From: Bacteroides sp.
GTDB taxonomy: Bacteria > Bacteroidota > Bacteroidia > Bacteroidales > Muribaculaceae
DNA: 64,000 nucleotides
Reading direction: 5' to 3'
Assembly (NCBI GenBank): GCA_014802335.1
Contig: JAAVCL010000026.1
Span: 1-64,000 of the forward strand
Shown here piece by piece: positions 34,502 to 54,030 of this stretch. The notes beneath the pieces are model-generated. The model was not told the DNA's origin. It ran no database searches and saw only the letters and a program-made list of their open reading frames with translations. The stretch's first letter is position 1. Each line of letters opens with the position of its first letter. The position numbers were made by a program, and so were the translations under genes.

Positions 34502-34533
34502 TTTGTCGTTTTAGGAAAAATTACCTAATTTTG
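34502..34533 (+). promoter_or_regulatory. Promoter of the nuo/atp operon
   Basis: TTTG at 34502-34505, 20 nt spacing, TAATTTTG at 34526-34533. The transcript would begin near 34537, with a leader of about 68 nt before nuoA. It is the only consensus promoter I see in the 18-kb energy block. Confidence 0.75.
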
Positions 34534-34604
34534 TGCAACACATAGCATCGTGTTTTCAGGATGTATTGCTAATGAAATGCTAATTAATTAAATAAAAGCA
34601 AGAT

Positions 34605-34976
34605 ATGAATTTATTGTGCGAAATAGGCAATGGCGCATTATCCATCACCGCGACCCTAACCGGAATCGGGCTCGTATTTGCCGCCCTGCTTATAGCAAAA
34701 TTGATTTCACCGAAATCGTATTCAGTAAAGAAAGCCGAGCCGTATGAATGTGGTATTCCAACCCGTGGTGAATCCATGATTCAGTTCAAGGCCGGCTATT
34801 ATATTTTTGCGATTCTGTTCCTCCTCTTTGATGTGGAAGTTGTGTTCCTTTATCCTTGGGCAACCGTTATGCGTAGTCTTGGAGCACAAGGCATCCTTTG
34901 CATCGCGATCTTTATGTTTGTACTTATTATGGGCCTTGCTTACGCATGGCGGAAAGGAGCGCTTAAATGGGATTAG
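34605..34976 (+). CDS. nuoA: NADH-quinone oxidoreductase subunit A
   Basis: This small membrane subunit of complex I (123 residues) has three transmembrane helices. The conserved loop is [25 protein letters not shown] (about 45-69), with the family's Cys in YECG, and the second helix carries [15 protein letters not shown]. It sits at the junction of membrane and peripheral arms near the quinone site. It is first in the operon and overlaps nuoB by 10 nt. Confidence 0.94.
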
Positions 34977-35581
34977 ACAATATTAAAAGCATGTCCCGCG
35001 AGGACTTCAAGAATAACGATTATATTGATAAGCTCGTTGAGGAACTCAATGCTACCGGTGCGAATGTAATGGTAGGTAAGTTCGACGATCTCATTAACTG
35101 GGGTGTTGCCAACTCGTTGTGGCCCTTGACCTTCGGAACAAGTTGCTGTGCAATCGAATTTATGAGTCTTGGAGCTGCACGTTATGACATGGCTCGCTTC
35201 GGATTTGAAGTTGCGCGTAACTCTCCCCGTCAGGCAGACTATGTGATGGTTCAAGGCACAATCGTTCATCGTATGGCCCCTGTGATGCGGCGTTTATACG
35301 AGCAGCTTGCCGAACCGAAATATGTGATCGCTTGCGGTGGCTGCGCTGTTTCCGGCGGCCCGTTCAAAAATTCATATTGTGTTGTGCCGGGTGTGGATCA
35401 GATTCTTCCCGTCGATGTCTTTATTCCGGGTTGTCCGCCCCGTCCCGAAGCTATGTTCTATGGCTTGATGCAGCTGCAAAGAAAAATTAAGGTTCAGAAA
35501 TTCTTTGGTGGCGTGAATCGTAAAGAAAAAATTGAAGAATTTTTTGCCGAGCATCCTGAAGAAAAAGGCCAGATCGGTTAA
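34967..35581 (+). CDS. nuoB: NADH-quinone oxidoreductase subunit B
   Basis: NuoB holds the terminal iron-sulfur cluster N2, which passes electrons to quinone. The four cysteine ligands are visible: tandem Cys60-Cys61 in [11 protein letters not shown], Cys126 in GGCAVSGG and Cys156 in [10 protein letters not shown]. The 204-residue length is normal. Translation starts inside the end of nuoA, so the two are coupled. The C-terminal 20 residues are charged and variable. Confidence 0.95.
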
Positions 35582-35614
35582 TTCTGTAACCAAACCTAAC
35601 ATCCCGTTATTGAA

Positions 35615-37240
35615 ATGAGTGATATTCAAAATAAAATCTTAAAGATATATCCCGCTGCCACGTTTGAAGAGGGAGACACCTTGCTGGTGAATGTGGCTGA
35701 AAAAGACTGGTTCAAGGTTGCTACCGCTCTCAAGAATGAACTTGGCTTTGATGTGCTTACCGCTCTGGTCGGTATGGACTGGAAAGACTCCATTGGTGTA
35801 GTTTATTATCTTACTGCAACATCAAGAAATTGGGAAGTGGTGGCTTTCAAGGTTCTTGCTGAAAATCGCGAAAACCCATATATTCATTCGGTCGCTGCTC
35901 TTTGGAAAGTTGCCAACTTCCAGGAGAGAGAGGTTTACGACATGTTCGGTATCAAATTTATAGATCATCCCGACATGCGCCGTTTCTTCTTACGCAACGA
36001 CTGGGTTGGCCACCCGCTCCGCAAGGACTACGACTCTAATCCGGAGTTGAATCCTATTCGTCTTGAAGACGAGTTAAATGAAGATGACACTCGTAGCTAC
36101 AAACTCGATGAGAAAGGCAATGTAGTCGAGGTTCCCGGAAAGGTGTTTGAAGAAAACGAATATGTTGTGAACATCGGGCCTCAGCATCCTTCCACTCATG
36201 GTGTGATGCGTTTTCGCGCTTCCGTCGATGGTGAGACCGTTAAAAAGGTTGATGTCGTTTCAGGATACATTCACCGTGGCATTGAAAAGTTATCTGAAGG
36301 TCTTACATATCCGCAGATTCTCCATTTTACAGATCGAATGGACTATATGTCGGCTCATCAGAACAGACACTGCCTTTGCATGTGTATAGAAAAGGCTCTT
36401 GGTGTGGAGGTTCCCCGTCGTGCTGAAGTTATTCGCACAATGATGGACGAACTTATGCGTATTTCCTCACATCTGCTCGCATTCGGATGTACGGCAATGG
36501 ACCTTGGCGCAACCACGGCTTTCTTCTATGGCTTCCGCGAACGCGAGATGGTGCTTGATATATTCGAGAAGACCTGCGGTGCCCGCATGTCAATGAACTA
36601 TAACGTGATTGGCGGTGTGATTGCTGATCTGCATCCCGATTTCCAAAAGGATGTCAAGGAGTTGATACGCATCATGCCCGATAGACTTAAAGAATATCAC
36701 ACTGTATTCTCGGGTAATATAATTGCTAAAAATCGTCTTAAAGGCGTGGGCATGCTCTCTAAGGAAGATGCAATCAATTATGCTATAACCGGCCCGAGCG
36801 GACGTGGATCAAACTGGTCGTGCGACTGTCGCAAAAAGCATCCTTATTCTGTGTATTCCGAGGTGGAATTTGATGAGGTGCTCGAGGATGGATGTGATTC
36901 CTACGCCCGTTACATGGTGAGAATGAAAGAAATCGAACAAAGCTGCCGTATTCTCGAACAGCTTGTCGACAACATTCCCGAAGGTGATATTCGTGCGCAG
37001 GTTCCCAAAATAATCAAACTTCCTGCAGGAAGATGGTATCAGCAGGTGGAAGCAAGCCGCGGAACATTCGGAGTTTACATTGAATCTGTGGGAGAAAAAA
37101 CACCATTCCGTGTTCATTTCCAGAGTCCTTGTTTCAATTTGGTTGGCGTAATGGATATTTGCTGCACAGGCTATATGATAGCCGACTTGATCACTATCGG
37201 CGCAGCACTTGATTTCGTTATCCCCGATATTGACCGTTAA
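35615..37240 (+). CDS. nuoCD: NADH-quinone oxidoreductase fused subunit C/D
   Basis: The 541-residue protein joins NuoC (about 1-150; WKVANFQEREVYDMFGIKF, HPDMRRFFL) to NuoD (about 175-541; GPQHPSTHGVMRF, RGIEKL, the quinone-pocket region DRMDYMSAHQNRHCL). The C/D fusion occurs in several phyla and is regular in Bacteroidetes. NuoD forms the quinone-binding cavity together with NuoB. The segment GPSGRGSNWSCDCRKKHPYSVY is conserved. nuoE, nuoF and nuoG do not follow, so the NADH-oxidising module is absent from this locus. Confidence 0.95.
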   Translation: MSDIQNKILKIYPAATFEEGDTLLVNVAEKDWFKVATALKNELGFDVLTALVGMDWKDSIGVVYYLTATSRNWEVVAFKVLAENRENPYIHSVAALWKVANFQEREVYDMFGIKFIDHPDMRRFFLRNDWVGHPLRKDYDSNPELNPIRLEDELNEDDTRSYKLDEKGNVVEVPGKVFEENEYVVNIGPQHPSTHGVMRFRASVDGETVKKVDVVSGYIHRGIEKLSEGLTYPQILHFTDRMDYMSAHQNRHCLCMCIEKALGVEVPRRAEVIRTMMDELMRISSHLLAFGCTAMDLGATTAFFYGFREREMVLDIFEKTCGARMSMNYNVIGGVIADLHPDFQKDVKELIRIMPDRLKEYHTVFSGNIIAKNRLKGVGMLSKEDAINYAITGPSGRGSNWSCDCRKKHPYSVYSEVEFDEVLEDGCDSYARYMVRMKEIEQSCRILEQLVDNIPEGDIRAQVPKIIKLPAGRWYQQVEASRGTFGVYIESVGEKTPFRVHFQSPCFNLVGVMDICCTGYMIADLITIGAALDFVIPDIDR

Positions 37241-37310
37241 ACTACGCTTGTCAGTAGATATCTCTCACTCATTTTCGAACTAAATTAAAATAAAGCATAC
37301 AAATAACATC

Positions 37311-38390
37311 ATGTTTAATTTCGGACAGTGGACTTCTGCGTTCAATAACTGGCTTCTCGGTATCGGTGTTGCCGATTGGCTCACAGTGCTTATCGAATGT
37401 ATCCTCATCGCCGTTGTGATTCTTGGCGTCTACACAGTGCTCGCACTTTTCTATATTCTCTACGAGCGTAAGCTTTGTGCTTGGTTTCAATGTCGACTCG
37501 GCCCTATGCGTGTCGGTAAATGGGGACTCCTTCAGGTCTTTGCCGATATGTTCAAAATCCTTATCAAAGAGCTTATTTCTCTTAAGGGTACAGACCGTTT
37601 TCTCTTCAAGCTCGCTCCTTATCTCGTGATTACCTCATCGGTTGTGATGCTCGCTTGCCTGCCGTGGGGTAACGGTTTGCAGATCATTGACTGGAACATA
37701 GGTATCTTCTTTATTCTCGCTGTGTCTTCAGTTGGAGTCTTAGGTATCTTGCTCGCCGGTTGGTCGTCGAATAACAAGTATACTCTTATCGGTGCGATGC
37801 GAAGCGGTGCGCAGATGGTGAGCTATGAAATTTCTTTAGGTCTTGCCATTATGACAATTGTGGTTCTTGCCGGCACTATGGATATTACTACTCTCGTTGC
37901 CGAGCAGGAAAATGCATGGTTCATTTTCTCCGGACACATACCGGCTTTGATAGCATTCATTATTTATGTTATCGCTGCAACTGCTGAAACAAATCGCGGA
38001 CCTTTCGACTTGCCGGAAGCTGAACACGAACTTACCGCCGGTTATCACACTGAATACTCGGGTATTCATTTCGGTTTCTTCTATCTGGCCGAATATCTGA
38101 ATCTGTTCATCGTTTCGGGTATTGCATCGTTGATGTTCCTCGGTGGTTGGATGCCTCTGCACGTTCCCGGTTGGGATGGCTTTAATATGGTGATGAATTG
38201 GATTCCGGGTCCTGTGTGGTTCTTGGGCAAAGCATTCTTCATCTCCTTTATCATCATTTGGTTTAAATGGACCTTCCCCCGCGTTCGTATCGACCAGATG
38301 CTTGCCTTTGAGTGGAAATATCTCATGCCTTTCGGCTTGGCCAATCTGCTTTTGATGACAGTGTGTGTGGCTCTCGGATGGCATTTCTAA
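37311..38390 (+). CDS. nuoH: NADH-quinone oxidoreductase subunit H
   Basis: This 359-residue membrane subunit (about 8 helices) forms much of the quinone chamber roof. Motifs include YILYERKLCAWFQCRLGPMRVGKWGLLQ (loop near 45-75), the ETNRGPFDLPEAEHELTAGYHTEYSG loop with conserved acidic residues, and the terminal RVRIDQMLAFEWKYLMPF. Length is normal. It is the last nuo gene before the ATP synthase block; the 126-nt gap to atpD has no terminator and no clear promoter. Confidence 0.95.
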   Translation: MFNFGQWTSAFNNWLLGIGVADWLTVLIECILIAVVILGVYTVLALFYILYERKLCAWFQCRLGPMRVGKWGLLQVFADMFKILIKELISLKGTDRFLFKLAPYLVITSSVVMLACLPWGNGLQIIDWNIGIFFILAVSSVGVLGILLAGWSSNNKYTLIGAMRSGAQMVSYEISLGLAIMTIVVLAGTMDITTLVAEQENAWFIFSGHIPALIAFIIYVIAATAETNRGPFDLPEAEHELTAGYHTEYSGIHFGFFYLAEYLNLFIVSGIASLMFLGGWMPLHVPGWDGFNMVMNWIPGPVWFLGKAFFISFIIIWFKWTFPRVRIDQMLAFEWKYLMPFGLANLLLMTVCVALGWHF

Positions 38391-38423
38391 TCAGATTTTT
38401 TGGAATTAATTTTAATAATATAG

Positions 38424-40019
<1,596 letters not shown>

Positions 40020-40042
40020 AACCAACGAAACTTAATTCTTCA

Positions 40043-40279
40043 ATGACTCTCGAAATTATTTCCGCTCACGAAGTTACCTTCTCCGGTGAAGTTACTGCCG
40101 TTACCCTCCCGGGTGAATTGGGAAGTTTTACAGTTCTTAAAGATCACGCGCCTCTCATTTCTGTGCTGGTCAAAGGCTCCGTTGTGTATACGGATGCCTC
40201 CGGCTCTAAAGGCTCTTTTGATATAGCCGGTGGTCTTGCCGATGTGAACGATAATGTGATTTCGGTGTGCGTCTATTGA
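40043..40279 (+). CDS. atpC: ATP synthase F1 subunit epsilon, short form
   Basis: At 78 residues the protein contains only the N-terminal beta-sandwich (LEIISAHEVTFSGEVTAVTLPGELGSFTVLKDHAPLIS) and lacks the C-terminal helical hairpin that inhibits ATP hydrolysis in E. coli-type enzymes. Short epsilons are typical of Bacteroidetes. It still couples the central stalk to the c-ring. It lies 23 nt behind atpD and 26 nt before atpB. Confidence 0.9.
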   Translation: MTLEIISAHEVTFSGEVTAVTLPGELGSFTVLKDHAPLISVLVKGSVVYTDASGSKGSFDIAGGLADVNDNVISVCVY

Positions 40280-40305
40280 AGCTGTCACCTTTTTTGACAC
40301 TTTGA

Positions 40306-41694
40306 ATGTCTATGATTAAAGAATTTTTATCAATAGTTGGAACCGCTCGCTGTCGGATGCGTATGGTTGGCCTGATGCTCGCTCTGCTTTTCATATTACC
40401 GGGCAGTGTCAGTGCAGCCGATCATGGCGACAAGGAGGAAGGTCTTGATGTGAAGGAGATAATCTTCGAGCATTTAGGTGACGGTTATGGATGGGAAGTG
40501 CCTTTCGCCCATGTGTATAGAATTCCTCTGCCCGTGATTGTGCGTGCGGAAGATGGCAAATGGTTTTGCTTCTCATCGTCAGATCTGACTGAAATTGAGA
40601 TAATCAGGAACGAGGAGACAGGCAAAGAGGAAAAGCATCTTGTGCCGGTCATCAAATCCATTGTTCGCGACGGAAAGCAATATAATTTCCTGATTGCTCA
40701 TGTAAGTACTCATAAAGACAAGGTGGTTCAGATTTTTGATCTGTCGGCTGATGATCAGAAAGAACTGAATGAAAAATTGAAGGACGTTGATAAAGCAGAT
40801 TCATCTGCTCCGGCAATTGTTGACGGCTATGTTTATTATAATGATAAATATTATCGTGAATACAGGACTCTGGATATTTCTATCACCAAGAATGTGGCCG
40901 CTCTCTTTATAGTTGTAATCCTGGTTACGGCAATGGTAATGGGTCTTGTGAACTATTATCGCAGAAGAGGGATGCGTGCACCCAGAAAAGGAATGGGCTT
41001 CTTTGAGATGCTCGTGGGCTTTATTTATTACGATACAATCAAAGCCACATTGGGAGAAAAGACCAAGAAATTCGCTCCCTATCTTCTCACAGTATTCTTC
41101 TTCATTCTGATTATGAACCTCGTGGGACTGATAGTAATTTTCCCCGGGGGTGCCAATCTGACCGGTAACATTGCTATAACTCTTGTTTTGGCCGTGTGCA
41201 CATTTATAATTACGAATATCACCGGAACAAAACATTATTGGAAAGAGATTTTCTGGCCCGAGGTTCCTCTGTTCTTGAAATTCCCGCTTCCTATTATGCA
41301 GGTTATCGAGGTGTTCGGAATCTTTACGAAACCGGCGGCTCTATGTGTGCGTCTCTTTGCCAACATGATGGGTGGACATATCATTGTAATTACTCTCACA
41401 CTTCTGATATTCATCTTTGCAAGCTTCGGAGCAGCCGTTGCAGGAACAGCCACTGTAGTGTCGGTGCTATTCTCGATATTCATGTTGCTCCTTGATGTCC
41501 TTGTAAGTTTCATTCAGGCTTACGTATTCACGCTTCTTTCAGCCTTGTTCATTTCAATGAGCCAGGTTCACGAAGAAGAGCATGCTGCGGAGAAAGATAA
41601 AGGAAACGCCAAACTTGAAGAAAAAGATATTGAATCGTTAAACGATTCAAAAAAACATCTTGAAGAGTTGGCCGCAAAAGTGGATTTAAAATAA
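40306..41694 (+). CDS. atpB: ATP synthase F0 subunit a, extended
   Basis: The membrane stator subunit forms the proton half-channels against the c-ring. The essential arginine is Arg349 in KPAALCVRLFANMMGGH. At 462 residues it is much longer than the E. coli form (271). It has a signal-like N-terminal helix ending in SVSAADHG, an extra periplasmic domain (about 40-190, with the VPFAHVYRIPLPVI segment seen in Bacteroidetes), and a charged Lys/Glu-rich cytoplasmic tail of about 45 residues. A perfect DNA palindrome lies inside the tail at 41630-41650. Confidence 0.92.
   Translation: MSMIKEFLSIVGTARCRMRMVGLMLALLFILPGSVSAADHGDKEEGLDVKEIIFEHLGDGYGWEVPFAHVYRIPLPVIVRAEDGKWFCFSSSDLTEIEIIRNEETGKEEKHLVPVIKSIVRDGKQYNFLIAHVSTHKDKVVQIFDLSADDQKELNEKLKDVDKADSSAPAIVDGYVYYNDKYYREYRTLDISITKNVAALFIVVILVTAMVMGLVNYYRRRGMRAPRKGMGFFEMLVGFIYYDTIKATLGEKTKKFAPYLLTVFFFILIMNLVGLIVIFPGGANLTGNIAITLVLAVCTFIITNITGTKHYWKEIFWPEVPLFLKFPLPIMQVIEVFGIFTKPAALCVRLFANMMGGHIIVITLTLLIFIFASFGAAVAGTATVVSVLFSIFMLLLDVLVSFIQAYVFTLLSALFISMSQVHEEEHAAEKDKGNAKLEEKDIESLNDSKKHLEELAAKVDLK
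41630..41650 (+). other. Perfect 21-nt palindrome at the 3' end of atpB
   Basis: TTGAATCGTT and AACGATTCAA flank a single central A, followed by AAAAAA. It lies 45 nt before the atpB stop, ahead of the 87-nt atpE leader. It may form an RNA hairpin marking a processing or stability boundary before atpE. Confidence 0.5.
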
Positions 41695-41778
41695 ACATCA
41701 ACGGATAATGGGGAACTGATCATTGAGTCAGGAATAAAAAGAATAAAAATAAATAATAATAAACTTAAAACACTCTGA

Positions 41779-42039
<261 letters not shown>

Positions 42040-42072
42040 AGAAGCATCTTTTAATTTAAAACACGTTAGATA

Positions 42073-42567
42073 ATGGAATTATTCACGCCCGATTTTGGCT
42101 TGGTGTTCTGGATGTTCATTGCGTTCATCATCCTTTTCCTTATACTTGCGAAATGGGGATGGCCTGTGATCATCAAAATGATGGACCAGCGTGCCGGCAC
42201 CATAGACCAGGGTGTGGAAGACGCCCGGAATGCGAAAGAACAGCTTGATAACGCCCGCGCGGAAGCACAGAAATATGTGAAAGAAGCGCAGGCGCGTCAA
42301 GCCGAAATGCTTCGCGAAGCCGCTAAAATGAAGTCTGACATCATTGAGGAAGCTCGCTCGGAAGCTAAAAAAGCTGCGCAGAAAGAAATGGATGCCGCCA
42401 AACTTGCAATCGATCAGGCTCGTAAAGAGGCCGAACTTCAGTTCAGAAACGAAGTTGGCAAGTTCTCGATTGATATTGCTGAAAAAATGGTGCGCTCTCA
42501 GCTCAGCAATGATAAGGCTCAGACCGAGTTGGTTAATAAATTGTTGGACGAAATAGAGAAAAACTGA
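42073..42567 (+). CDS. atpF: ATP synthase F0 subunit b
   Basis: This 164-residue peripheral-stalk subunit has one N-terminal membrane helix (about 9-30, FWMFIAFIILFLILAKWGW) and a long charged helix rich in Ala/Glu/Lys that forms a coiled coil to reach F1. Length is normal. It lies six bases before atpH. Confidence 0.93.
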   Translation: MELFTPDFGLVFWMFIAFIILFLILAKWGWPVIIKMMDQRAGTIDQGVEDARNAKEQLDNARAEAQKYVKEAQARQAEMLREAAKMKSDIIEEARSEAKKAAQKEMDAAKLAIDQARKEAELQFRNEVGKFSIDIAEKMVRSQLSNDKAQTELVNKLLDEIEKN

Positions 42568-42573
42568 TAGGCA

Positions 42574-43116
42574 ATGATTTCCGGACTGATTCCTCACCGT
42601 TACGCGCGAGCTCTATATAAGTTCGCCGGCGAATCAAATAACTGCAAAGCTGTGTATGATGTGATGAAAAGTGTTATTGAAGCTTTTCAGGCAAATCCGC
42701 AGCTCGAGAAAGTGCTGTCTAACCCGAATGTCGCTGCAGACGACAAACGGAAGTTGCTTATTGCAGCTGCGGGGAAGAAGCCCGGAGATGATTACATTCG
42801 CTTCGTCTCCTTGATTCTCGACCACAAACGCGAGGAGTTCGCTTATCTTATGGCGCTTGCTTACAGGGAAATTTACCGTAAGGAAAATAATATTTCCGAG
42901 GTAAGAATCACTACGGCTGTTCAACTCCCCGACAAGGAATTAAGCAAACTCAAGGCTGTCGTGGAAAATGCTTTTAAAAACACTACTTTCGAATACGAAT
43001 ATGTAGTGAACCCGGAGCTGATTGGCGGCTTTGTGATAGATGTGGATTCTGTCCGCATGGATGCTTCCCTGAGTAGCGAACTCGAACAATTACGTCAAAA
43101 TCTAAGTAGCAATTAA
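42574..43116 (+). CDS. atpH: ATP synthase F1 subunit delta
   Basis: This 180-residue protein joins the peripheral stalk to the top of F1. It shows the family start [15 protein letters not shown], a six-helix N-terminal domain, and the C-terminal signature [31 protein letters not shown]. It lies between atpF and atpA with gaps of six and four bases, so translation is probably coupled. Confidence 0.93.
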
Positions 43117-43120
43117 TAAG

Positions 43121-44701
43121 ATGCTCAATCCCAGCGAAATATCTGATGTTCTCAAGCAAGAGCTCGAAAATATCAACTCTAAGGTAAAATTTGAAGAGGT
43201 AGGCACGGTGCTTAGCGTCGGTGATGGCGTGGCTCATGTCTATGGCCTTGAAAATGTTAGAAGTAACGAACTCGTTGAGTTTGAAAACGGCGCGCATGGC
43301 GTGGCTCTCAACCTCGAAGAAAGCAATGTCGGAGTTGTGCTTCTCGACAAAGTTAATTCCGTAACGGAAAATATGTCGGTTAAGCGCACGGGTGAAGTGG
43401 CTTCCATTCCTGTGGGTGAGAGCATGCTTGGTCGTGTTGTCAATATGCTCGGTGAGCCTATTGACGGTCGCGGTCCAATCGAAGGCGATCGAATTCATCT
43501 CCCTCTGGAAAGAAAAGCCCCGGGTGTTATTTTCCGTTCACCCGTGAATCAACCTCTTCAAACAGGCCTTAAGGCTGTCGATGCAATGATACCTATCGGC
43601 CGTGGTCAGCGTGAGCTTATCATCGGTGACCGCCAGGTTGGTAAGACTGCTATTGCAATCGACACGATCATTAATCAAAAAGAAAATTATGATGCCGGAA
43701 AACCGGTTTACTGTATATATGTAGCCATAGGCCAGAAGGCTTCGACGGTTGCCTCGATTGTTCATACTCTCGAAAAGTATGGTGCGATGGATTATACTGT
43801 TGTGGTGGCTGCAAATGCTTCGGATTCCGCATCAATGAGATATTATGCTCCTTTTGCCGGCGTTGCAATTGGAGAGTACTTCCGCGACACCGGCCGCGAT
43901 GCCTTGATCGTATACGATGACCTTTCAAAGCAGGCCGTTGCATATCGTGAAATATCTCTTATCCTCAAACGTCCTTCAGGTCGTGAGGCTTACCCCGGTG
44001 ATATCTTCTATCTCCACTCACGTCTGCTTGAACGCGCAGCTAAGATTGTGGAAGACCAGAAGGTTGCGGAAGAGATGAACGACCTCCCCGCAGTGCTTAA
44101 ACCTATGGTTAAGGCCGGAGGCTCTTTGACTGCTCTCCCCATCATCGAAACGCAGGCCGGTGACGTGTCTGCTTATATCCCGACCAACGTTATTTCAATT
44201 ACCGACGGTCAGATCTTCCTCGAAACCGCTTTATTTAATCAAGGTATTCGTCCCGCAATCAACGTAGGTATCTCTGTGTCGCGTGTGGGTGGTAATGCTC
44301 AGATTAAGTGTATGAAGAAAGTGGCAGGTACACTCAAAATTGCACAGGCACAGTATCGTGAGCTTGAATCGTTCACCAAATTCGGTGGTGATATCGACCC
44401 GGTGACCGCAGCTGTAATTGACCGTGGTCGTAAGAATCAACAGTTGCTCGTTCAGCCGCAGTATCACCCATGGCCGGTTGAAAACGAAGTTGCCGTTATT
44501 TATTGCGGCGTTAACGGCCTGCTCGAAAATGTACCTATCGAAAAAGTAAAGGAATTTGAGCAGAATCTGATTCAGACTCTTAAACTTCGCGATCAGCAAG
44601 ATGTGCTTGATGTGCTTAAATCGGGTAAGCTTACTCCGGAAGTTGAAGAAAAACTAACTGCCACCGCACGCGAAGTGGCCGACGGTCTTAGAGCTCAGTA
44701 A
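43121..44701 (+). CDS. atpA: ATP synthase F1 subunit alpha
   Basis: This is the non-catalytic nucleotide-binding subunit (526 residues). It has the P-loop [13 protein letters not shown] (about 170-182), [16 protein letters not shown], the arginine-finger region [20 protein letters not shown], and a helical C-terminal domain. The ATG follows the atpH stop by four bases. Confidence 0.96.
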
Positions 44702-44767
44702 AGCATTTTGACCTTCTGCAATAACTGAATATCTCAGTTTCGACAACATCATAGATATTGACAAATA

Positions 44768-45655
44768 ATGGCAACTCTTAGAGAACTAAAAACCAGAATC
44801 GGATCTGTCGCTTCGACTGAAAAGATAACCGGTGCGATGAAAATGATTTCATCGGCCAAAGTGCATCAGAATGAGCAAGCACTTCGCCAGTTGCAACCGT
44901 TCAAAGAAAAAATCAAATCCATCATGGGCCACATCCTGGCCACTGATGTAACTTTTGATTCACCCTTGATTCGTAAGCGCGAGGTGAAAAAGGCTGCTGT
45001 TGTGGTGTTCGGTTCCGACGATGGCCTTTGCGGTGCTTACAATGTCAATATCTTCAAAGGATTTCTTGTAAGCATTGACAGATTGAGAAACCGTTATGGC
45101 GCCGATCTTAAAGTTGATGTTTATCCGGTGGGCAAGAAAATGGAGAAAGCCGTGCGTCGTCTGCACGACGGTGGTCTTAACATCATAACCATTGATGGAG
45201 TTGACTCTAAAATGAAGGGCGACAAAGTTAATTCTTTTACCCATTCACTCAGAGACGCTTTTATTAATGGCGATGTTGACTGTGTGGAAGTAATATATAT
45301 GAAATATATTTCCATGAGTCGTCAGAAACTTACAGAAGAAATTTTATTTCCGGTATCGGAAGATGCCTTGGCCGCTGAAACCGAAACCGGAAATGAAAAT
45401 CAGCTCTATATTTTCGAACCGGATCCGAACAGCATCTTCAATCAGGTGCTTCCGATGTTTGTCCTTTCAACAATGCAGCAAATCACGATCGAGAATAGAA
45501 GTTCCGAGCAGGCTGCACGAGTAATGGCAATGCAGAGTGCCAACGATAATGCCAAGAAACTCAACGAAGAATTGCAGTTGGAGTATAACAAACTCCGCCA
45601 GCAGGGAATCACAACCGAGCTTCTCGACATTCTCGGAGGCCAGGTGGAACGTTAA
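44768..45655 (+). CDS. atpG: ATP synthase F1 subunit gamma
   Basis: The 295-residue central rotor subunit has the N-terminal helix TLRELKTRIGSVASTEKITGAMKMISSAK and the C-terminal helix (MAMQSANDNAKKLNEELQLEYNKLRQQGITTELLDILGG region) that form the coiled coil in the alpha/beta hexamer, with the GSDDGLCGAYN Rossmann-like motif between. It is the last gene of the atp block; nuoI starts 42 nt later with no terminator between. Confidence 0.94.
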   Translation: MATLRELKTRIGSVASTEKITGAMKMISSAKVHQNEQALRQLQPFKEKIKSIMGHILATDVTFDSPLIRKREVKKAAVVVFGSDDGLCGAYNVNIFKGFLVSIDRLRNRYGADLKVDVYPVGKKMEKAVRRLHDGGLNIITIDGVDSKMKGDKVNSFTHSLRDAFINGDVDCVEVIYMKYISMSRQKLTEEILFPVSEDALAAETETGNENQLYIFEPDPNSIFNQVLPMFVLSTMQQITIENRSSEQAARVMAMQSANDNAKKLNEELQLEYNKLRQQGITTELLDILGGQVER

Positions 45656-45697
45656 TCTTGATAACATCATTCAGTAAAAATTTCTTAGAGTAATCTA

Positions 45698-46324
45698 ATG
45701 AGTAGTGTAAAAGAATATTTTCAATCTGTAGGACAGGGGATCAAAAGTCTCGTGCAGGGTATGACTGTGACCGGAAAGGAAATGGTCACTCCCAAAATCA
45801 CCGAACAATATCCGGAAAACAGAAAGACTCTCCAGATTGCAGATCGTTTCCGTGCGGAACTTACACTGAAATATGATGCGGAAGGACGCCATAAGTGTAT
45901 CGGCTGCATGATATGTCAGAATAATTGTCCGAACGGAACTATCCAGATTCAGACTAAAATGGTTGAACTTCCCGACGGGAAGAAAAAACGTAAACTCGAT
46001 AAGTATATGTACGACCTTGGCAGTTGCACATTCTGCATGCTTTGTGTCACTACATGTCCGCAAGACGCCTTGGAGTTTTCGAACGATTTCGAACAGGCCG
46101 TGTTTGAAAGAGACAAACTTATCAAACAACTTAATTACAGACCGGAACCGGAAGGGGAAGCAGCAGCTCCGGCCAAGCCGGCGATGGATCCGGAAAAACT
46201 TGCAGCAATCAAGGCTGAGGCATTGAAAAAAGCCGCTGCAATCAAGGTTCAGAAAGAGGCTGCCGCCAAAGCAGCTGCCAATCCTGCTCCGGACGCCAAA
46301 ACAACCGAAACTGCAAATGAGTAA
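45698..46324 (+). CDS. nuoI: NADH-quinone oxidoreductase subunit I with Ala/Lys tail
   Basis: This ferredoxin-like subunit carries two [4Fe-4S] clusters (N6a/N6b). The ligands are Cys67, 70, 73 and 77 (CIGCMICQNNCP) and Cys110, 113, 116 and 120 (CTFCMLCVTTCP). The core ends near residue 144. An unusual tail of about 64 residues, rich in Ala, Lys, Pro and Glu (AAIKAEALKKAAAIKVQKEAA-like), follows, with no family counterpart known to me. The start MSSVKEYFQSVGQGIKSL is typical. It resumes the nuo series right after atpG. Confidence 0.93.
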   Translation: MSSVKEYFQSVGQGIKSLVQGMTVTGKEMVTPKITEQYPENRKTLQIADRFRAELTLKYDAEGRHKCIGCMICQNNCPNGTIQIQTKMVELPDGKKKRKLDKYMYDLGSCTFCMLCVTTCPQDALEFSNDFEQAVFERDKLIKQLNYRPEPEGEAAAPAKPAMDPEKLAAIKAEALKKAAAIKVQKEAAAKAAANPAPDAKTTETANE

Positions 46325-46433
46325 AGTGCGAGGGGTTTTCATTCGGAAAACTCATGCACTCTCTTTCTCAATTTCTCCCTGCAACGGGATAAATTCAGAC
46401 CTAAACATCTAAAACAACAACTTCAACATAATA

Positions 46434-46961
46434 ATGGATTCAGTAGCGAATATTATTCTCTATTTTGTGGTGGCCATAATCATCGTCGCCTTTTCGGTGA
46501 TGACTGTGACCAGTCGCAAAATTCTTCGCGCCGCAACCTACCTTCTGTTTGTTCTGCTCGGAGTTGGAATTTTCTATTTCCAACTCGGATATCAGTTCCT
46601 TGGTGCGGTGCAGATCGCTGTCTATGCCGGCGGCATTATGGTGCTGTTTGTATTCTCGATTCTTCTTACTCGTCATCCCGACGAAAAAGTGGCGTTGCTA
46701 ACATCTCATCGTCGCGAAATTGGAATAACGGTTGCTGTTGTCAGCCTCGTTCTTCTTATTTTTGCCGTTTGCACAATGCCTCTTATCGACGGAATGTCGT
46801 TGACTCAATGTGTGAATTCAGGTGCAGACATTACTATGCATAAGATTGGTGAGTTATTTACAGGTTCTTCTAAATTCCAGTACTTACTCCCGTTTGAAGC
46901 AATCAGTATTCTTCTTCTCGCATGTATAATTGGCGGTGTAACAGTCGCCCGTAAAAGATAA
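46434..46961 (+). CDS. nuoJ: NADH-quinone oxidoreductase subunit J
   Basis: This 175-residue membrane subunit has five helices. The conserved segment QLGYQFLGAVQIAVYAGGIMVLFVFSILLT (about 50-80) includes the pi-bulge helix that takes part in coupling. The 109-nt gap behind nuoI holds a small imperfect hairpin (GGTTTTC with GAAAACT) but no terminator. Confidence 0.93.
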   Translation: MDSVANIILYFVVAIIIVAFSVMTVTSRKILRAATYLLFVLLGVGIFYFQLGYQFLGAVQIAVYAGGIMVLFVFSILLTRHPDEKVALLTSHRREIGITVAVVSLVLLIFAVCTMPLIDGMSLTQCVNSGADITMHKIGELFTGSSKFQYLLPFEAISILLLACIIGGVTVARKR

Positions 46962-46973
46962 AAGCCTTAGATT

Positions 46974-47285
46974 ATGGACTTGACTATGTTATGGTATCTC
47001 GTGCCGAGCATCATCATGTTCGCGGCCGGTGTCTACGGGTTCTGCACCCGCAAGAACATGATCGCGCTCTTGCTTTCGCTCGAGTTGATGTTGAACGCTG
47101 CCGATTTGAATTTCGTGGTGTTCAATCGTTTCTTATTCCCCGGAATGTTCGAGGGAATGGTTTTCACCCTGTTTGCCATTGCAATTGCAGCTGCTGAAAC
47201 TGCCATTGCCATTGCGATAATCATCAATATTTATCGTGAAATCGGCAACACTGATATTAACTCCGTAAAACAAATGAAATTCTGA
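46974..47285 (+). CDS. nuoK: NADH-quinone oxidoreductase subunit K
   Basis: This 103-residue, three-helix subunit has the two conserved membrane glutamates of the proton path, in ALLLSLELMLNAADLNFV (Glu36 region) and AIAAAETAIAIAI (Glu72 region). It starts 12 nt after nuoJ and ends one base before nuoL. Confidence 0.94.
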   Translation: MDLTMLWYLVPSIIMFAAGVYGFCTRKNMIALLLSLELMLNAADLNFVVFNRFLFPGMFEGMVFTLFAIAIAAAETAIAIAIIINIYREIGNTDINSVKQMKF

Positions 47286-47286
47286 T

Positions 47287-49272
47287 ATGGCCCCAACACT
47301 TCCCATTCTTATTTTAGCCATACCCTTCACAATGTTTCTCATTTTGGGTATCGGCGGTGTGAAGATGAGCCGCAAGCTTGCCGGTGTGCTTGGTATTTGT
47401 GCCAATGCAACTCTGGCCGTGCTCGCTTATATTGTGGCCTTCACATATTTCTTCTCCGGAGATCCGGCTTTCATTCTCGACGGTGTTCGTCAGCAGGTGC
47501 AGGTGTTTGATGTCACCTGGCTCGCTTTCACCGAGAGGATGGTGGTGAACATCGGTTTCTTGCTCGACCCGATTTGTGCCATGATGTTGATTGTGATTAC
47601 AACAATTTCATTTATGGTGCATCTTTACAGCTGGGGATACATGGAGCATGAACCCGGATTCCAGCGTTACTATGCTTTCCTTTCTCTCTTCACTTTCTCG
47701 ATGCTTGGTCTGGTTGTGGCAACCAATATCTTCCAGATGTACATCTTCTGGGAGCTCGTGGGTGTGTCTTCATTCCTGCTGATCGGGTTCTTCTACAAAC
47801 TCCCTTCTGCGGTGGCAGCATCGAAAAAAGCCTTTATTGTGACACGTTTTGCCGACCTTTTCATGTTGATCGGTATTCTGGTGCTTTCATACTACGTGTC
47901 GCACACTCCGGCCGACGGTCCGCTTGGCACTGCATCAGCATTCAACTTCCTTATGTTGAACGCTCAGCCCACAAACGTATTGGCTTCTACAATAGGAGCA
48001 ACCTTCATGGGCGGTTCAGTATTGACCTGGGCGATGATTCTGATTTTTGTGGGCGGTATGGGTAAATCTGCTATGATGCCTCTTCACATCTGGCTTCCCG
48101 ATGCAATGGAAGGCCCGACTCCTGTGTCTGCACTTATTCATGCCGCTACAATGGTTGTGGCAGGTGTTTACCTTGTTGCTCGTTTCTTCCCGCTTTTCTG
48201 CATCGTGCCCGATTCTCTTACATTTATCAGTATCGTAGGTGCGATCACGGCTTTCTATGCTGCGGTTGTGGCTTGTGCGCAGATCGATATCAAGCGTATC
48301 CTTGCGTTCTCAACCATCTCGCAGATTGCCTTTATGATGGTGTCGCTCGGATGTGCATATAACGAACCCATTGAAGGTGTGCATTATTCAGGTCTCGGTT
48401 ACATGGCCGGCATGTTCCACCTCTTCACTCATGCCATGTTCAAGGCATTGCTCTTCTTGGGTGCAGGTGCTTTGATTCATGCTGTTCATTCAAATAACTA
48501 CACGGCAATGGGTGGCTTGCGCAAATATATGCCCATCACCCACATTACATTCCTGATTGGCTGTCTTGCCATTGCAGGTATATGGCCTTTCGCCGGTTTC
48601 TTCTCAAAAGATGAAATGCTGACAGCCATGTTCAACCGTCACTGGTTCTATGGCGCATGGATGACAATGGTTGCAGGTCTCACTGCTTTCTATATGTTCC
48701 GTATGTATTTCCTCGTTTTCTGGTGGGAAGAAAATCCGGAATACAAGAAACCGGGTCATAAGCCCCACGATGCTCCTTGGCAGATGTCGGTGCCTCTGAT
48801 TATTCTGGCAGCTATCAGCTGTGTGGCCGGTTTTATTCCATTCGGAGAATTTGTGACATTTAACGGAGAACCCTATCATATTCACATTGAGCCGCAGGTT
48901 GCAGCCACATCACTCACCGTCGCTGTTATTGCAATCGCATTGGCATTTGTGATGTATAGAAAGAAAAACAATCTCCCCACAAAGGTCAAGAATATTTTCC
49001 CCGCCCTTTGGGAAGCTGCTCATCGCCGTTTCTATTGGGACGAAATATATCAATTTGTTACCCACAAGATTATTTTCGGTATTATATGCCGCAGCATCGC
49101 ATGGTTTGACCGTCATGTCATCGACGGTGCAATGGACGCAATGGCTAACATCACCCAGTGGGCTTCTGTTAAAATCAAAGGTATGCAGAGTGGCAGTGTT
49201 CAGAGCTACGTTGTTTGGTATTTCCTCGGAGCCGCACTGCTTGCAGCAATCACCTGGATCTGTATCTTATAA
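47287..49272 (+). CDS. nuoL: NADH-quinone oxidoreductase subunit L
   Basis: This is the largest antiporter-like proton-pumping subunit (661 residues, about 16 helices). The core shows FWELVGVSSFLLIGFF with the key Glu, GMGKSAMMPLHIWLPDAMEGPTPVSALIHAATMVVAGVYL, and DIKRILAFSTISQIAFMM. The C-terminal part holds the long lateral helix and final anchor helix. Length is normal. Confidence 0.95.
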   Translation: MAPTLPILILAIPFTMFLILGIGGVKMSRKLAGVLGICANATLAVLAYIVAFTYFFSGDPAFILDGVRQQVQVFDVTWLAFTERMVVNIGFLLDPICAMMLIVITTISFMVHLYSWGYMEHEPGFQRYYAFLSLFTFSMLGLVVATNIFQMYIFWELVGVSSFLLIGFFYKLPSAVAASKKAFIVTRFADLFMLIGILVLSYYVSHTPADGPLGTASAFNFLMLNAQPTNVLASTIGATFMGGSVLTWAMILIFVGGMGKSAMMPLHIWLPDAMEGPTPVSALIHAATMVVAGVYLVARFFPLFCIVPDSLTFISIVGAITAFYAAVVACAQIDIKRILAFSTISQIAFMMVSLGCAYNEPIEGVHYSGLGYMAGMFHLFTHAMFKALLFLGAGALIHAVHSNNYTAMGGLRKYMPITHITFLIGCLAIAGIWPFAGFFSKDEMLTAMFNRHWFYGAWMTMVAGLTAFYMFRMYFLVFWWEENPEYKKPGHKPHDAPWQMSVPLIILAAISCVAGFIPFGEFVTFNGEPYHIHIEPQVAATSLTVAVIAIALAFVMYRKKNNLPTKVKNIFPALWEAAHRRFYWDEIYQFVTHKIIFGIICRSIAWFDRHVIDGAMDAMANITQWASVKIKGMQSGSVQSYVVWYFLGAALLAAITWICIL

Positions 49273-49298
49273 CCTATTGTCGCAAAATATTAAAGATT

Positions 49299-50813
49299 AT
49301 GTTTTCAAATTTTTTGATCTGGTTTGTAATAGTACCTATCATCATGATGGCAGGTCTTGCATGTTGCGGCAATGACAACATGAAGGCAATTCGCACAGTG
49401 ATGGTGGTCTGCTCGACCGTTCTTCTCGCGATGGCTATTTGGCTTGTCGTAGAGTTTCTCGGGTTGCGTGCCGCCGGAGATACTTCCGAAATGCTCTTTA
49501 CAGGCAGCTGGATGTGGTATGCTCCTCTTAATATTCACCTTGCTGTCGGAGTTGACGGAATTTCGGTGCTGATGCTTCTTCTCTCTGCAATAATTGTTTT
49601 TGCAGGTACATTCGCATCATGGAAAATTAATCCGCTTCCCAAAAATTTCTTCCTTTGGTTTGCTCTTCTGTCAACCGGAGTATTCGGCTTCTTTATTTCT
49701 ATCGACATGTTCACTATGTTCATGTTCTATGAAGTAGCGCTTATCCCGATGTACCTCCTTATCGGAGTCTGGGGCACAGGCCGCAAGGAATACTCGGCAA
49801 TGAAGCTGACTCTTATGCTTATGGGTGGTTCGGCATTCCTTATGCTTGGTTTGCTCGGAATCTATTGGCATTCTGCTCCTGCCGGAGGCGAACATACATG
49901 GAATATCCTTCAAATCGCACACAACAATGCAATTGATCCTTCATGGCAGAACCTCCTTTTCTGCTTCACTTTCGTAGGATTCGGTGTTCTGGGTGCTATG
50001 TTCCCGTTCCACACTTGGAGTCCTGACGGTCACGCATGTGCGCCCACAGCCGTTTCAATGCTCCATGCCGGTGTGCTTATGAAGCTTGGTGGTTACGGTT
50101 GCTTCCGTATCGCTATCTATCTTCTTCCCTCGGCGGCTCAGGAACTCGCTTGGATTTTCATAATCCTTACAGGTGTCTCAATTGTGTATGGTGCTTTCTC
50201 TGCATGTGTTCAGACAGACCTCAAGTATATCAATGCATACTCATCGGTGTCTCACTGCGGTATGGTGCTCTTTGCAATCCTGATGCTCAATCAGACTGCA
50301 ATGACAGGTGGTATTCTTCAGATGCTCAGCCACGGTTTGATGACTGCACTCTTCTTCGCGCTCATCGGTATGATTTACGGTCGTACGCACACCCGTGACA
50401 TCCGCGAGATGGGTGGCCTCATGACAATTATGCCTTATCTCGGAGTTTGCTACATGATTGCAGGTTTCGCTTCTCTCGGTCTTCCCGGTCTTTCAGGCTT
50501 CGTGGCTGAAATGACAATCTTCTTCGGTGCGTTCGAAGACAGTGATCTTTTCCACCGCATATTCGTGATAGCCGCAACCTGTGCAATTGTTATTACTGCG
50601 GTTTATATCCTCCGCGTTGTCGGCAAACTGATTCTGGGTCCGGTAAAAGACGAACATCACCGTCAGCTCACTGATGCTTCATGGTGGGAACGTCTCTCAA
50701 CCGTAACACTCATTGTCTGCCTTGCAGGTATAGGTTTCTTCCCGAATTGGATTAACGAAACAATACAGCACAGCTTCATTCCTATCATCAATGCTCTGAA
50801 CGGAGCAATCTGA
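49299..50813 (+). CDS. nuoM: NADH-quinone oxidoreductase subunit M
   Basis: This is the second antiporter-like subunit (504 residues). It has MFMFYEVALIPMYLLIGVWG with the conserved Glu, FPFHTWSPDGHACAPTAVSMLHAGVLMKLGGYG, and DLKYINAYSSVSHCGMVL. The ATG at 49299 (MFSNFLIWFVIV) starts the first helix; the frame extends 28 codons upstream into nuoL, but that stretch is not NuoM-like. Confidence 0.94.
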   Translation: MFSNFLIWFVIVPIIMMAGLACCGNDNMKAIRTVMVVCSTVLLAMAIWLVVEFLGLRAAGDTSEMLFTGSWMWYAPLNIHLAVGVDGISVLMLLLSAIIVFAGTFASWKINPLPKNFFLWFALLSTGVFGFFISIDMFTMFMFYEVALIPMYLLIGVWGTGRKEYSAMKLTLMLMGGSAFLMLGLLGIYWHSAPAGGEHTWNILQIAHNNAIDPSWQNLLFCFTFVGFGVLGAMFPFHTWSPDGHACAPTAVSMLHAGVLMKLGGYGCFRIAIYLLPSAAQELAWIFIILTGVSIVYGAFSACVQTDLKYINAYSSVSHCGMVLFAILMLNQTAMTGGILQMLSHGLMTALFFALIGMIYGRTHTRDIREMGGLMTIMPYLGVCYMIAGFASLGLPGLSGFVAEMTIFFGAFEDSDLFHRIFVIAATCAIVITAVYILRVVGKLILGPVKDEHHRQLTDASWWERLSTVTLIVCLAGIGFFPNWINETIQHSFIPIINALNGAI

Positions 50814-50855
50814 TGAACTTTAACTAACATTTAGAAACATCAAGAACAACATACA

Positions 50856-52328
50856 ATGGATTATTCACAATTTGGGGCAATGGTGCCCGAACTCATAATT
50901 CTCGGACTGTTCTTCATCGTTTTCGTTCTCGACACTTTCTCAAACGACGGCGAAAAGAAGTTCTTAACTCCGGTGACTACTGTGCTGTTCGGCCTCGCAA
51001 CCATCGCTATATGGATTATCCCCGGTTGCAACGAAGCTGTATTTGGCGATATGTATGTCAATAATGCAGCCTGCAAAGCTATGAAGGCAATTCTCAACGT
51101 TGGTGTGTTTATTGTCTTCTTGCAGTCAGCCCATTGGGTGCAGTCGGACGAAGTCGCAATAAGAAAAGGTGAGTTCTACGAACTTATCCTCGTAACACTC
51201 TTCGGAATGTATCTGATGATCTCGGCCCGTCATTTCCTCTTGTTTATCATCGGACTTGAGTCAGCTTCTCTTCCCCTTGCAGCTCTTATCGCTTTCAATA
51301 AAAAGCACTATGAGAGTCATGAAGCCGCAATCAAATATATTCTGACTGCAGTCTTTTCTTCGGCAATATTGCTGATGGGTCTCTCTTTCGTTTACGCTTT
51401 CTCGGGCGGTTCATTATACTTTAACGATATAAGAGAAAGCATCGCCGTTGGTGAACACTCAGGCCTGTTGATTTGCGCCCTTGCTTTCATGATTGCAGGT
51501 ATAGGTTTCAAGCTTTCTCTTGTTCCTTTCCACCTCTGGACAGCAGATGTATATCAAGGTGCTCCCACAGCAATCACTGCATATCTTTCCGTAATTTCCA
51601 AAGGGTCCGCAGCATTTGCATTCTTCGTGATTTTCGTGCAGGCCTTCGGAACGGTTTACAGTGATCTTTGGGAATGGATGATGTATGCAGTGATCATTGC
51701 CACCATCACAGTCGGTAACCTATTTGCTATCCGCCAGAAGAACATGAAGAGATTGATGGCATTCTCTTCAATCTCTCAGGCCGGTTACATTATGCTCGGT
51801 GTGATGACAGAATCAGCCTTAGGATTAGGCTCGATGATGTTCTATATCTTCGTTTATATTGTCAGCAACCTCGCGGTATTCGGTGTGATTTCGGCAATAG
51901 AAAACAAGACCGGCAAAGTTGGCATGGACGACTACGACGGTCTTCACAAGACAAACCCCCGTCTGTCTTTTGCAATGACTCTTGCCATGTTCTCGCTTGC
52001 AGGTATTCCTCCTTTCGCTGGATTCTTCAGTAAGATATTGATATTTACATCAGTCACCGCATCAGACAATATGGCACTCTATATGCTTGTGCTGATAGCT
52101 TTGATCAATACGATCATTTCGCTCTACTATTATCTGCTTGTAGTGAAAGCCATCTGGATCAACCCCGGCGAAGCGAAAATCGAACGATTCAGCTCTGAGA
52201 AATGTGATAAGGTTGCAATGTGTCTCTGCGTATTAGGCATAGTATTCTTTGGCCTTGTTCCCTATATCTACGATTACTGTATCGAAGTCGCTCCGAGCGT
52301 AATCCCCACTTTAGCCTCAATCCTCTAA
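50856..52328 (+). CDS. nuoN: NADH-quinone oxidoreductase subunit N
   Basis: This is the third antiporter-like subunit (490 residues, about 14 helices). It shows GLESASLPLAALIAF, KLSLVPFHLWTADVYQGAPTAITAYLSVISKGSA and NMKRLMAFSSISQAGYIMLG. It is the last gene of the 18-kb energy block and is followed by the terminator at 52384. Confidence 0.95.
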   Translation: MDYSQFGAMVPELIILGLFFIVFVLDTFSNDGEKKFLTPVTTVLFGLATIAIWIIPGCNEAVFGDMYVNNAACKAMKAILNVGVFIVFLQSAHWVQSDEVAIRKGEFYELILVTLFGMYLMISARHFLLFIIGLESASLPLAALIAFNKKHYESHEAAIKYILTAVFSSAILLMGLSFVYAFSGGSLYFNDIRESIAVGEHSGLLICALAFMIAGIGFKLSLVPFHLWTADVYQGAPTAITAYLSVISKGSAAFAFFVIFVQAFGTVYSDLWEWMMYAVIIATITVGNLFAIRQKNMKRLMAFSSISQAGYIMLGVMTESALGLGSMMFYIFVYIVSNLAVFGVISAIENKTGKVGMDDYDGLHKTNPRLSFAMTLAMFSLAGIPPFAGFFSKILIFTSVTASDNMALYMLVLIALINTIISLYYYLLVVKAIWINPGEAKIERFSSEKCDKVAMCLCVLGIVFFGLVPYIYDYCIEVAPSVIPTLASIL

Positions 52329-52383
52329 AACAGGTAACTCTTAATTAGACGATAGAGTACTATTTAATATATAGTTTGAAGGT

Positions 52384-52424
52384 GTTGTGTCACAATCCTG
52401 CCGGGATTGTGACACAACTTTTTT
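52384..52424 (+). terminator. Terminator of the nuo/atp operon
   Basis: GTTGTGTCACAATCC and GGATTGTGACACAAC form a perfect 15-bp stem over a 5-nt loop, followed by TTTTTT. It is the strongest terminator in the window. Confidence 0.93.
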
Positions 52425-52691: not shown

Positions 52692-53990
52692 CTAATCTCT
52701 TAAACATCCGATGGGAATTATTTTCACTCCGTCCTCTCGAGTATATGCAATTTCTCCGCCGGTGAGGACAATCAGCAAATCCGGTTCGCGAAGTTTGGTT
52801 TGTTTCTCTGTCTTATTCTTCTCGGCAATGAGGCGTTTAATTTCAAGAAGATGTTTTGCGCCATCCTCTATCTCTCGGCTACCGAGTTTACATTCTATTA
52901 ACGCATATCGTCCGTCATTAAGGTGCAATACGGCATCAGCTTCAAGTCCAAGACGGTCATGGTAATATGACAAAGATCCTCCAAGTGCTTGCGAATATGC
53001 CCGGAGATCACGAAAACACAAACACTCGAATATAAATCCGAAGGTTTTCAAATCAAGTTCCAGTCTTTCCGGTGACGCTCCTAAAGCCGCCACCGCAATG
53101 GAGGGGTCAACAAAGCAACGTTTTTTCCCGGTTCGAATAACAGTCTTGGAACGGATAGCAGGGGACCATGCATCTATATCATCAATTACAAAGAGTTTCT
53201 CCAAAGCACATACATAATCATCAAATGTAGGCATAGATGTCCCTTCCATTTCCTCAGATATGTCAGCAAGCATAGAAGTCTTCTTTGCTAAAGTACATAT
53301 ATTTCGTGCGTATGAACGAAGAATAAGCCTTGCCAATGCAGGCTTTCTTCGCGTTTTATCAACTCTTGAAATGTCCTCATTACATATTACATCAACATAA
53401 TCTTTGGCAATCAACAACTGAGCTTTGGGGCTCATCTCATCAAGAGAAGCCGGCCACCCGCCACGACAGGCAGCAAAAATCAGTTGCTCAATAGATAATT
53501 GCGATATTTCACCGTCAATGTCGTAGTCCACGTCATTAAATAAGCGTCCCAATGAAATAGATCCATTAGATTCAAGAGACTCGAACAGGCTCATCGGATA
53601 CATTGCCATTTTGGTAATGCGCCCTGTTCCGGTGTGCATTATTTCATCACCGTCTATTACTGTCGATCCGGTCAGAATAAACTGACCTTTCTCTCTACGT
53701 TCATCAACAGCATGGCGAACGGCATCCCATATAACGGGAGCTACCTGCCATTCATCGATAAGCCGGGGAGTAGCACCCTTGAGCAGCAACGATGGCTTTG
53801 TCCTTGAAGTAGCAAGATAACCTTCCCGTCGGTCAGGATCTTGCATCTTTATGACGCTCTCTGCCCGTCGCTCTGCTGTTGTTGTTTTGCCACACCACTT
53901 TGGTCCGGTAATCTGCACCGCACCGAAAGCTTCAAGCCTCAAGTCAAGAGTCCTGTCAGCAATTCTACTTAGATATTTCTTCTCTTTCAT
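52692..53990 (-). CDS. DUF4143-type AAA ATPase
   Basis: The 432-residue protein belongs to the large family of prokaryotic P-loop ATPases with an N-terminal AAA domain and C-terminal DUF4143. It has ITGPKWCGKTTTAE (Walker A, about 27-40), RLIDEWQVAPVIWD (Walker B), and ILTGS with a sensor position. The C-terminal domain ends with a PD-(D/E)xK-like strand (ADAVLHLNDGRYALIECKLG) as in related nuclease-fold domains. The biological role of this family is not known. The start is the second ATG (53990), because the first (54002) lies inside the -7 promoter element. It is a single gene with long gaps on both sides. Confidence 0.85.
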   Translation of the reverse strand: MKEKKYLSRIADRTLDLRLEAFGAVQITGPKWCGKTTTAERRAESVIKMQDPDRREGYLATSRTKPSLLLKGATPRLIDEWQVAPVIWDAVRHAVDERREKGQFILTGSTVIDGDEIMHTGTGRITKMAMYPMSLFESLESNGSISLGRLFNDVDYDIDGEISQLSIEQLIFAACRGGWPASLDEMSPKAQLLIAKDYVDVICNEDISRVDKTRRKPALARLILRSYARNICTLAKKTSMLADISEEMEGTSMPTFDDYVCALEKLFVIDDIDAWSPAIRSKTVIRTGKKRCFVDPSIAVAALGASPERLELDLKTFGFIFECLCFRDLRAYSQALGGSLSYYHDRLGLEADAVLHLNDGRYALIECKLGSREIEDGAKHLLEIKRLIAEKNKTEKQTKLREPDLLIVLTGGEIAYTREDGVKIIPIGCLRD

Positions 53991-53999
53991 AATCAACTG

Positions 54000-54030
54000 C
54001 AAAATTAGCGATTAGATCTGATACTTCAAA
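54000..54030 (-). promoter_or_regulatory. Promoter of the DUF4143 ATPase gene (near-leaderless)
   Basis: On the minus strand TTTTG, 19 nt spacing and TAATTTTG (54007-54000) match the consensus fully. Only nine bases (CAGTTGATT) separate the -7 element from the ATG at 53990. Confidence 0.75.

Follow-up and report, generated by a model that had tools for sequence, protein, structure and literature searches.

How did a complete F-type ATP synthase operon come to stand inside the gene cluster of complex I, and are the two expressed together? The question is raised by a locus of the window, i.e., the whole stretch of 64,000 nucleotides analyzed here, in which positions 34605-52328 of the + strand hold 18 intact, tightly packed genes in the order nuoA-B-CD-H, atpD-C-B-E-F-H-A-G, and nuoI-J-K-L-M-N (Table 1). 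Each gene was named by NCBIfam models, and the nesting of the atp block within the nuo cluster, proposed in the initial annotation of this DNA, was thus recovered with all 18 frames and their profile matches in that order. The coordinates also agree with the spacing given there, in which the largest gaps are those of nuoH/atpD, measuring 126 nt when atpD starts with the ATG of 38517 and 87 nt when it starts with the GTG of 38478 (TIGR01039 begins to match at about 38529), and nuoI/nuoJ (109 nt). Other gaps are atpB/atpE (87 nt), nuoCD/nuoH (70 nt), and atpG/nuoI (42 nt), and the remaining ones range from a 10-nt overlap up to 66 nt.

Table 1. Features of the nested nuo-atp locus, in window coordinates.
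Feature	Positions	Strand	Basis and remarks
Bacteroidales-type promoter match TTTG-N20-TAATTTTG, 71 nt before nuoA	34502..34533	+	pattern search
nuoA	34605..34976	+	frame and NCBIfam model
nuoB	34967..35581	+	frame and NCBIfam model
nuoCD (fused)	35615..37240	+	frame and NCBIfam model
nuoH, left side of insertion site	37311..38390	+	frame and NCBIfam model
nuoH/atpD junction, 126 nt	38391..38516	+	terminator and promoter pattern scans
atpD (F1 beta)	38517..40019	+	frame and NCBIfam model; longer frame from GTG 38478 possible
atpC (F1 epsilon), 78 aa	40043..40279	+	profile match, beta-sandwich domain only
atpB (Fo a)	40306..41694	+	profile match; Pfam residues 202-417, long N-terminal part
atpE (Fo c)	41782..42039	+	profile match
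atpF (Fo b)	42073..42567	+	profile match
atpH (F1 delta)	42574..43116	+	profile match
atpA (F1 alpha)	43121..44701	+	profile match
atpG (F1 gamma)	44768..45655	+	profile match
atpG/nuoI junction, 42 nt, right side of insertion	45656..45697	+	terminator scan
nuoI	45698..46324	+	profile match
nuoJ	46434..46961	+	profile match
nuoK	46974..47285	+	profile match
nuoL	47287..49272	+	profile match
nuoM	49299..50813	+	profile match; ATG start picked by eye inside frame from TTG 49215
nuoN	50856..52328	+	profile match
Intrinsic terminator, 16-pair stem then TTTTTT	52384..52418	+	terminator scan

The profile scores identify a standard-type F1Fo ATP synthase with all eight subunits. AtpD (beta) reaches 771 bits with TIGR01039 (cut-off 463), above the standard atpD threshold, and 541 with TIGR03305, the model of the alternate, N-type ATPase, below its cut-off of 752. 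AtpC (epsilon) passed Pfam PF02823 and stayed under the TIGR01216 cut-off (57.5 vs 67.25) because it has one domain only, the N-terminal beta-sandwich. Its C-terminal helical domain, which in other bacteria is an inhibitor of ATP hydrolysis, is absent. The 462-aa AtpB has about 200 N-terminal residues without a Pfam match, ahead of its a-subunit match.

The complex I encoded here is the 11-subunit form (NuoA, B, CD, and H-N, by profile matches). Neither open frames nor profile searches revealed nuoE, nuoF or nuoG in the operon, and PF01512 (NuoF-type) had no match in the whole genome, which is 83.6% complete. With NuoEFG missing, the complex is, as judged from its gene content, not an ordinary NADH dehydrogenase. 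A similar nuo operon without nuoEFG is described for Bacteroides fragilis in passages of PMC7002350, according to which the 11-subunit NUO does not use NADH and the operon is poorly expressed in rich medium. Both the subunit composition and that work lead us to expect that the electron donor is probably other than NADH. The earlier picture of complex I as a proton pump is therefore reasonable as regards pumping and incomplete as regards the form of the complex, which is the one without NuoEFG. NuoI carries a long alanine- and lysine-rich tail past its 4Fe-4S motifs.

The core of this finding is already known, because Ormerod et al. 2016 (PMC4936053) state, in the passages on this locus, that the F-type ATP synthase is integrated in the complex I locus of 26 'Ca. 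Homeothermaceae', one genome being without both complexes; this family name (S24-7) is an earlier name of Muribaculaceae (PMC6381624). The window shows the same Muribaculaceae-type locus, i.e., F-type ATP synthase genes within a complex I locus, in the same family and, as there, without NuoEFG. Consequently, the suggestion of novelty made in the initial annotation was abandoned: the arrangement has been in print for Muribaculaceae since 2016 (PMC4936053), and it proved to be a clade trait across several families. The same passages are silent on gene order, junctions, and origin, and on any extent past the family; extent and origin are added by this study. The main text of PMC6381624 holds none of the terms 'complex I', 'ATP synthase' or 'nuo'. 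Searches of the open-licence literature gave no account of the wider clade, of a single vertical origin or of the empty sites.

In the Muribaculaceae sample, nuoH was found in 58 and atpD over the cut-off in 56 of the 59 genomes, and in 56 of the 59 atpD lies within about 220 bases after nuoH on the same contig and strand (coordinates were compared by eye, here and in the order sample). The exceptions are G039, with no nuoH match and the end of atpD only, as well as G045 and G047, in which nuoH is near a contig end and no atpD exceeds the cut-off. The nesting is real, conserved, and ordinary for Muribaculaceae. A comparison of gene order across Bacteroidales, the check advised at the outset, was then made with 149 genomes, nuoH being detected in 63 (E 1e-60), atpD in 129 (E 1e-100), and both in 58. 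Eleven of these 58 are nested, so the arrangement does not occur throughout the order; they belong to seven of the 119 family codes of the sample (f1, three genomes; f22 and f28, two each; f60, f68, f88, and f109, one each). The idea of a lineage marker therefore stands for a clade including several families; for that clade of gut Bacteroidales, the nesting is a clean gene-order marker.

All 13 full-length nested stretches that were fetched have the whole 18-gene order (L082, a shorter second piece of G085, ends within atpF), and in each of the separate nuo stretches that were fetched nuoI comes directly after nuoH. The separate atp operons of G163, G066, G077, and G190 match the window in their eight genes and in the order of these, D-C-B-E-F-H-A-G, but lie outside nuo. 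This block does not occur everywhere: only atp D-C fell within the fetched stretches of G148, G063, G078, and G080, and the order found in G060 was E-F-H-A-G-D-C. At the class level, where nuoH matches occurred in 82 of 119 genomes, nuoH is followed in the best 30 loci by nuoI (27 loci), nuoJ (one) or nothing recognised (two), and atpD follows it in none of these 30.

Titled loci extend this picture to named genera, with the restriction that they are the best 80 of 581 confirmed and that titles are depositors' labels, some of them plainly wrong. Among these 80, 20 are nested with both junctions, six are nested up to a contig end, 51 have contiguous nuoH-nuoI, and three are undecided. Nested loci include those titled Barnesiella sp. 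An22, Coprobacter secundus, and Ca. Caccoplasma, as well as every one of the ten under a Muribaculaceae or Paramuribaculum title, of which two are cut; Ca. Gallibacteroides is nested up to the contig end, and a close, complete relative of it is nested too. Separate without exception among these 80 are the loci titled Bacteroides, Phocaeicola, Parabacteroides, Tannerella, Alistipes, Butyricimonas, and Odoribacter. The expectation that Bacteroides is not nested was borne out, since unlike in the window nuoH is directly followed by nuoI in 18 of the 18 Bacteroides-titled loci among the best 80, and no atp genes were found near it within a flank of up to 10 kb in these 18.

The question of how the arrangement arose was approached with trees, all of them midpoint-rooted; the supports on the Nuo and ATP synthase trees come from quick searches without bootstrap. 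On the NuoB/CD/H tree (109 rows; the divergent G060 and G143 left out), 40 nested rows lie on one side of a branch with support 99, and the clade of 41 rows contains no separate row, its remaining member, L196, being cut and undecided. The window's four nearest rows on this tree are three f1 genomes and L184, a locus that groups among Muribaculaceae in spite of its title, and the window falls within a starred clade of 23 rows. Nine of the ten Muribaculaceae- or Paramuribaculum-titled loci (all except L158) belong to this clade, together with loci under Prevotellaceae, Porphyromonadaceae, Barnesiella, Ca. Limisoma, and Bacteroidales titles. The placement of the window identifies the host as a member of Muribaculaceae. 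The six-gene Nuo tree (29 rows; G063 and G143, with no nuoB in the fetched stretch, left out) needs one change between nested and separate, with support 100. On the RpoB tree (29 rows; G145 absent for lack of an RpoB match, G018 partial with 766 aa, and G170 on a very long branch), the 13 nested rows form one clade with support 100/99. One change is also enough on the AtpD tree (77 rows, support 93; three of the 26 named nested loci left out with AtpD pieces under 351 residues) and on the AtpD/A/G/H tree (23 rows, support 83), on both of which the support of the nested clade is moderate. Since the Nuo, AtpD, and RpoB trees each need a single change, the best reading of these sequences would be that the nesting was gained once and then inherited vertically.

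The nearest separate relative of the nested clade differs among trees, being G060 on RpoB (99/97), G163 on the ATP synthase trees, and a large group of separate genomes on NuoB/CD/H; G060 is distant from the clade on the six-gene Nuo and AtpD/A/G/H trees. Although a sister on RpoB, G060 (L076, L077) has divergent Nuo proteins and a deviating atp order, and its locus may have been replaced. The AtpD tree, which covers order-level genomes only, led us to reject a foreign origin of the synthase: the nested synthases sit where their hosts sit in the order, therefore the lineage's own operon would have moved, and import is unsupported.

The junctions bear on the site of entry. The median distance from nuoH to nuoI is 15 nt in separate loci (n=68); for the two new junctions, the medians in 34 nested loci are 42.5 and 66.5 nt, gene starts being estimated from tblastn matches throughout. 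Therefore, the block appears to have entered a short gap without the loss of any nuo gene, in line with the earlier idea of a recombination between nuoH and nuoI at what was once an uninterrupted junction, as it is in separate loci.

As to expression, the pattern TTTG-N20-TAATTTTG, which we take to be the Bacteroidales promoter consensus, matches before nuoA at the very position where a promoter had been proposed (34502), and the strong terminator noted at 52384 proved to be a 16-pair stem with a T run. On its own, the window match counts for little, because the whole window has four matches vs 1.8 expected, and at least four were reached in 8 of 100 shuffles. It gains weight because the relatives are enriched at the same place: the exact consensus occurs upstream of nuoA in 10 of the 34 nested loci (the window included; the loci are interrelated) and upstream of atpD, nuoI or nuoJ in none of the 34. 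With at least nine of ten consensus positions required, 17 of the 34 nested loci match upstream of nuoA vs 6.5% of shuffles, three upstream of atpD, which does not exceed the 10% reached by shuffles, and none upstream of nuoI and nuoJ. At nine of ten positions, 20 of 68 separate nuo loci match before nuoA vs 7.6% of shuffles, and three of nine separate atp loci before atpD vs 11%; these comparisons leave out loci outside all three classes, the shuffles are simple (two-base blocks), and the loci share kinship. In the window itself, the pattern search gave no Bacteroidales consensus promoter in the nuoH/atpD junction, and in neither of the two gaps that flank the atp block (nuoH/atpD, atpG/nuoI) did the terminator scan list a terminator-like site on the + strand. 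Spacing, strand, and both scans fit one transcript, and a single message of about 18 kb over nuo and atp, starting before nuoA and ending after nuoN, is probable on these sequence grounds. A sigma-70 promoter scan was uninformative (34 sites vs 32.9 in shuffles), and the Bacteroidales consensus was used instead. The terminator lies between nuoN and a convergent - strand neighbour, an ATPase gene with AAA_14 and DUF4143 domains (52692-54002).

Taken together, we regard the locus as, most likely, a composite bioenergetic operon that arose by one block move, was inherited vertically, and is probably read as a single transcript. A complete eight-gene F1Fo operon would have been relocated, in one event and in one piece, to the short nuoH/nuoI gap of an 11-subunit nuo cluster. 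This would have happened in an ancestor shared by Muribaculaceae and the lineages of the Barnesiella/Coprobacter type, and the nested locus would have been passed on vertically since. The gene order and the one change per tree are the observed part of this scheme, to which the direction of change, as deduced from outgroups, and a presumed single-block move are added. The promoter before nuoA and the terminator after nuoN would then yield the one long transcript from which pump and synthase are made together, possibly at the fixed expression ratio suggested in the initial annotation. The complex would pass electrons from a non-NADH donor to menaquinone and pump ions for use by the synthase, a step for which the work on B. 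fragilis and the absence of NuoEFG are the basis.

This reading has to be weighed against others, of which an assembly or binning artefact is the most easily dismissed: the window does come from an incomplete genome in 30 contigs, but an artefact is refuted by dozens of separate assemblies that show the same junctions, three of which (Barnesiella sp. An22, Coprobacter secundus 177, and Muribaculaceae bacterium Isolate-110) bear no MAG title. Very improbable, too, is a nesting ancestral to the order and undone several times. Parsimony alone leaves the direction of change unfixed on midpoint-rooted trees, but one gain is enough, and the 30 class-level loci, where nuoI as a rule and never atpD follows nuoH, speak for the separate state in the outgroups. 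A spread of the whole nested locus between families by horizontal transfer would equally give one clade in the locus's own gene trees; we give it scarcely any credence, because RpoB, encoded elsewhere in the genome, also unites the nested genomes, and because the family groupings on the Nuo and AtpD trees mostly agree, the exception being f109, which stands beside f22 or f1.

More serious, though still unlikely, is a neutral relic, in which the clusters share a neighbourhood, the atp genes keep a promoter of their own, and expression is uncoupled. No exact consensus was found before atpD or nuoI in the 34 nested loci, but since about two-thirds of them are without it even before nuoA, a differently built internal promoter might escape detection, and the missing internal consensus is weak evidence. 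Junctions wider than the nuoH/nuoI gap of separate loci suit such a relic as well; the window junctions free of + strand terminator-like sites and the nested clade devoid of any separate locus (L196 undecided) do not.

Were the composite operon also a selected coupling device, in which one transcript ties the amount of a pump not fed by NADH to that of the synthase, pump and synthase would be retained or lost jointly, because no separate locus was seen in a clade of at least seven family codes; we hold such selection to be doubtful. If it is true, nested and separate clades are a natural experiment on operon fusion and pump-to-synthase stoichiometry. Nested Muribaculaceae and Barnesiella, set beside separate Bacteroides, offer a paired comparison for the effect of pump-synthase co-transcription. 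Two large energy complexes have long been encoded together at this locus, which suggests that fused operons can be stable.

Several single loci deserve mention. In G163 (f106; L074 and L075, contig C8), nuo and atp lie about 11 kb apart on one contig, on opposite strands and convergent, which is possibly an earlier stage of approach or chance. In Bacteroidales bacterium SIG115, which is outside the nested clade, atp D-C-B-E start 282 nt after the nuoN frame on the same strand (L153:14403-21074) and run on to where the locus ends; nuo and atp have apparently been joined here a second time, independently. In G116 (L091), which the Nuo tree places with Bacteroides, complex I is present and F-type atpD is absent at E 1e-100. 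In the nuo cluster of L160, recognised nuo genes are separated in three places by 1252, 2266, and 876 bases, where the operon may harbour other genes or insertions. Finally, L150, L146, L147, and L184 (titled, e.g., Ruminococcus flavefaciens, Flavobacteriales, and Prevotellaceae) group among Bacteroidales on the Nuo tree, and their titles are probably wrong depositor labels.
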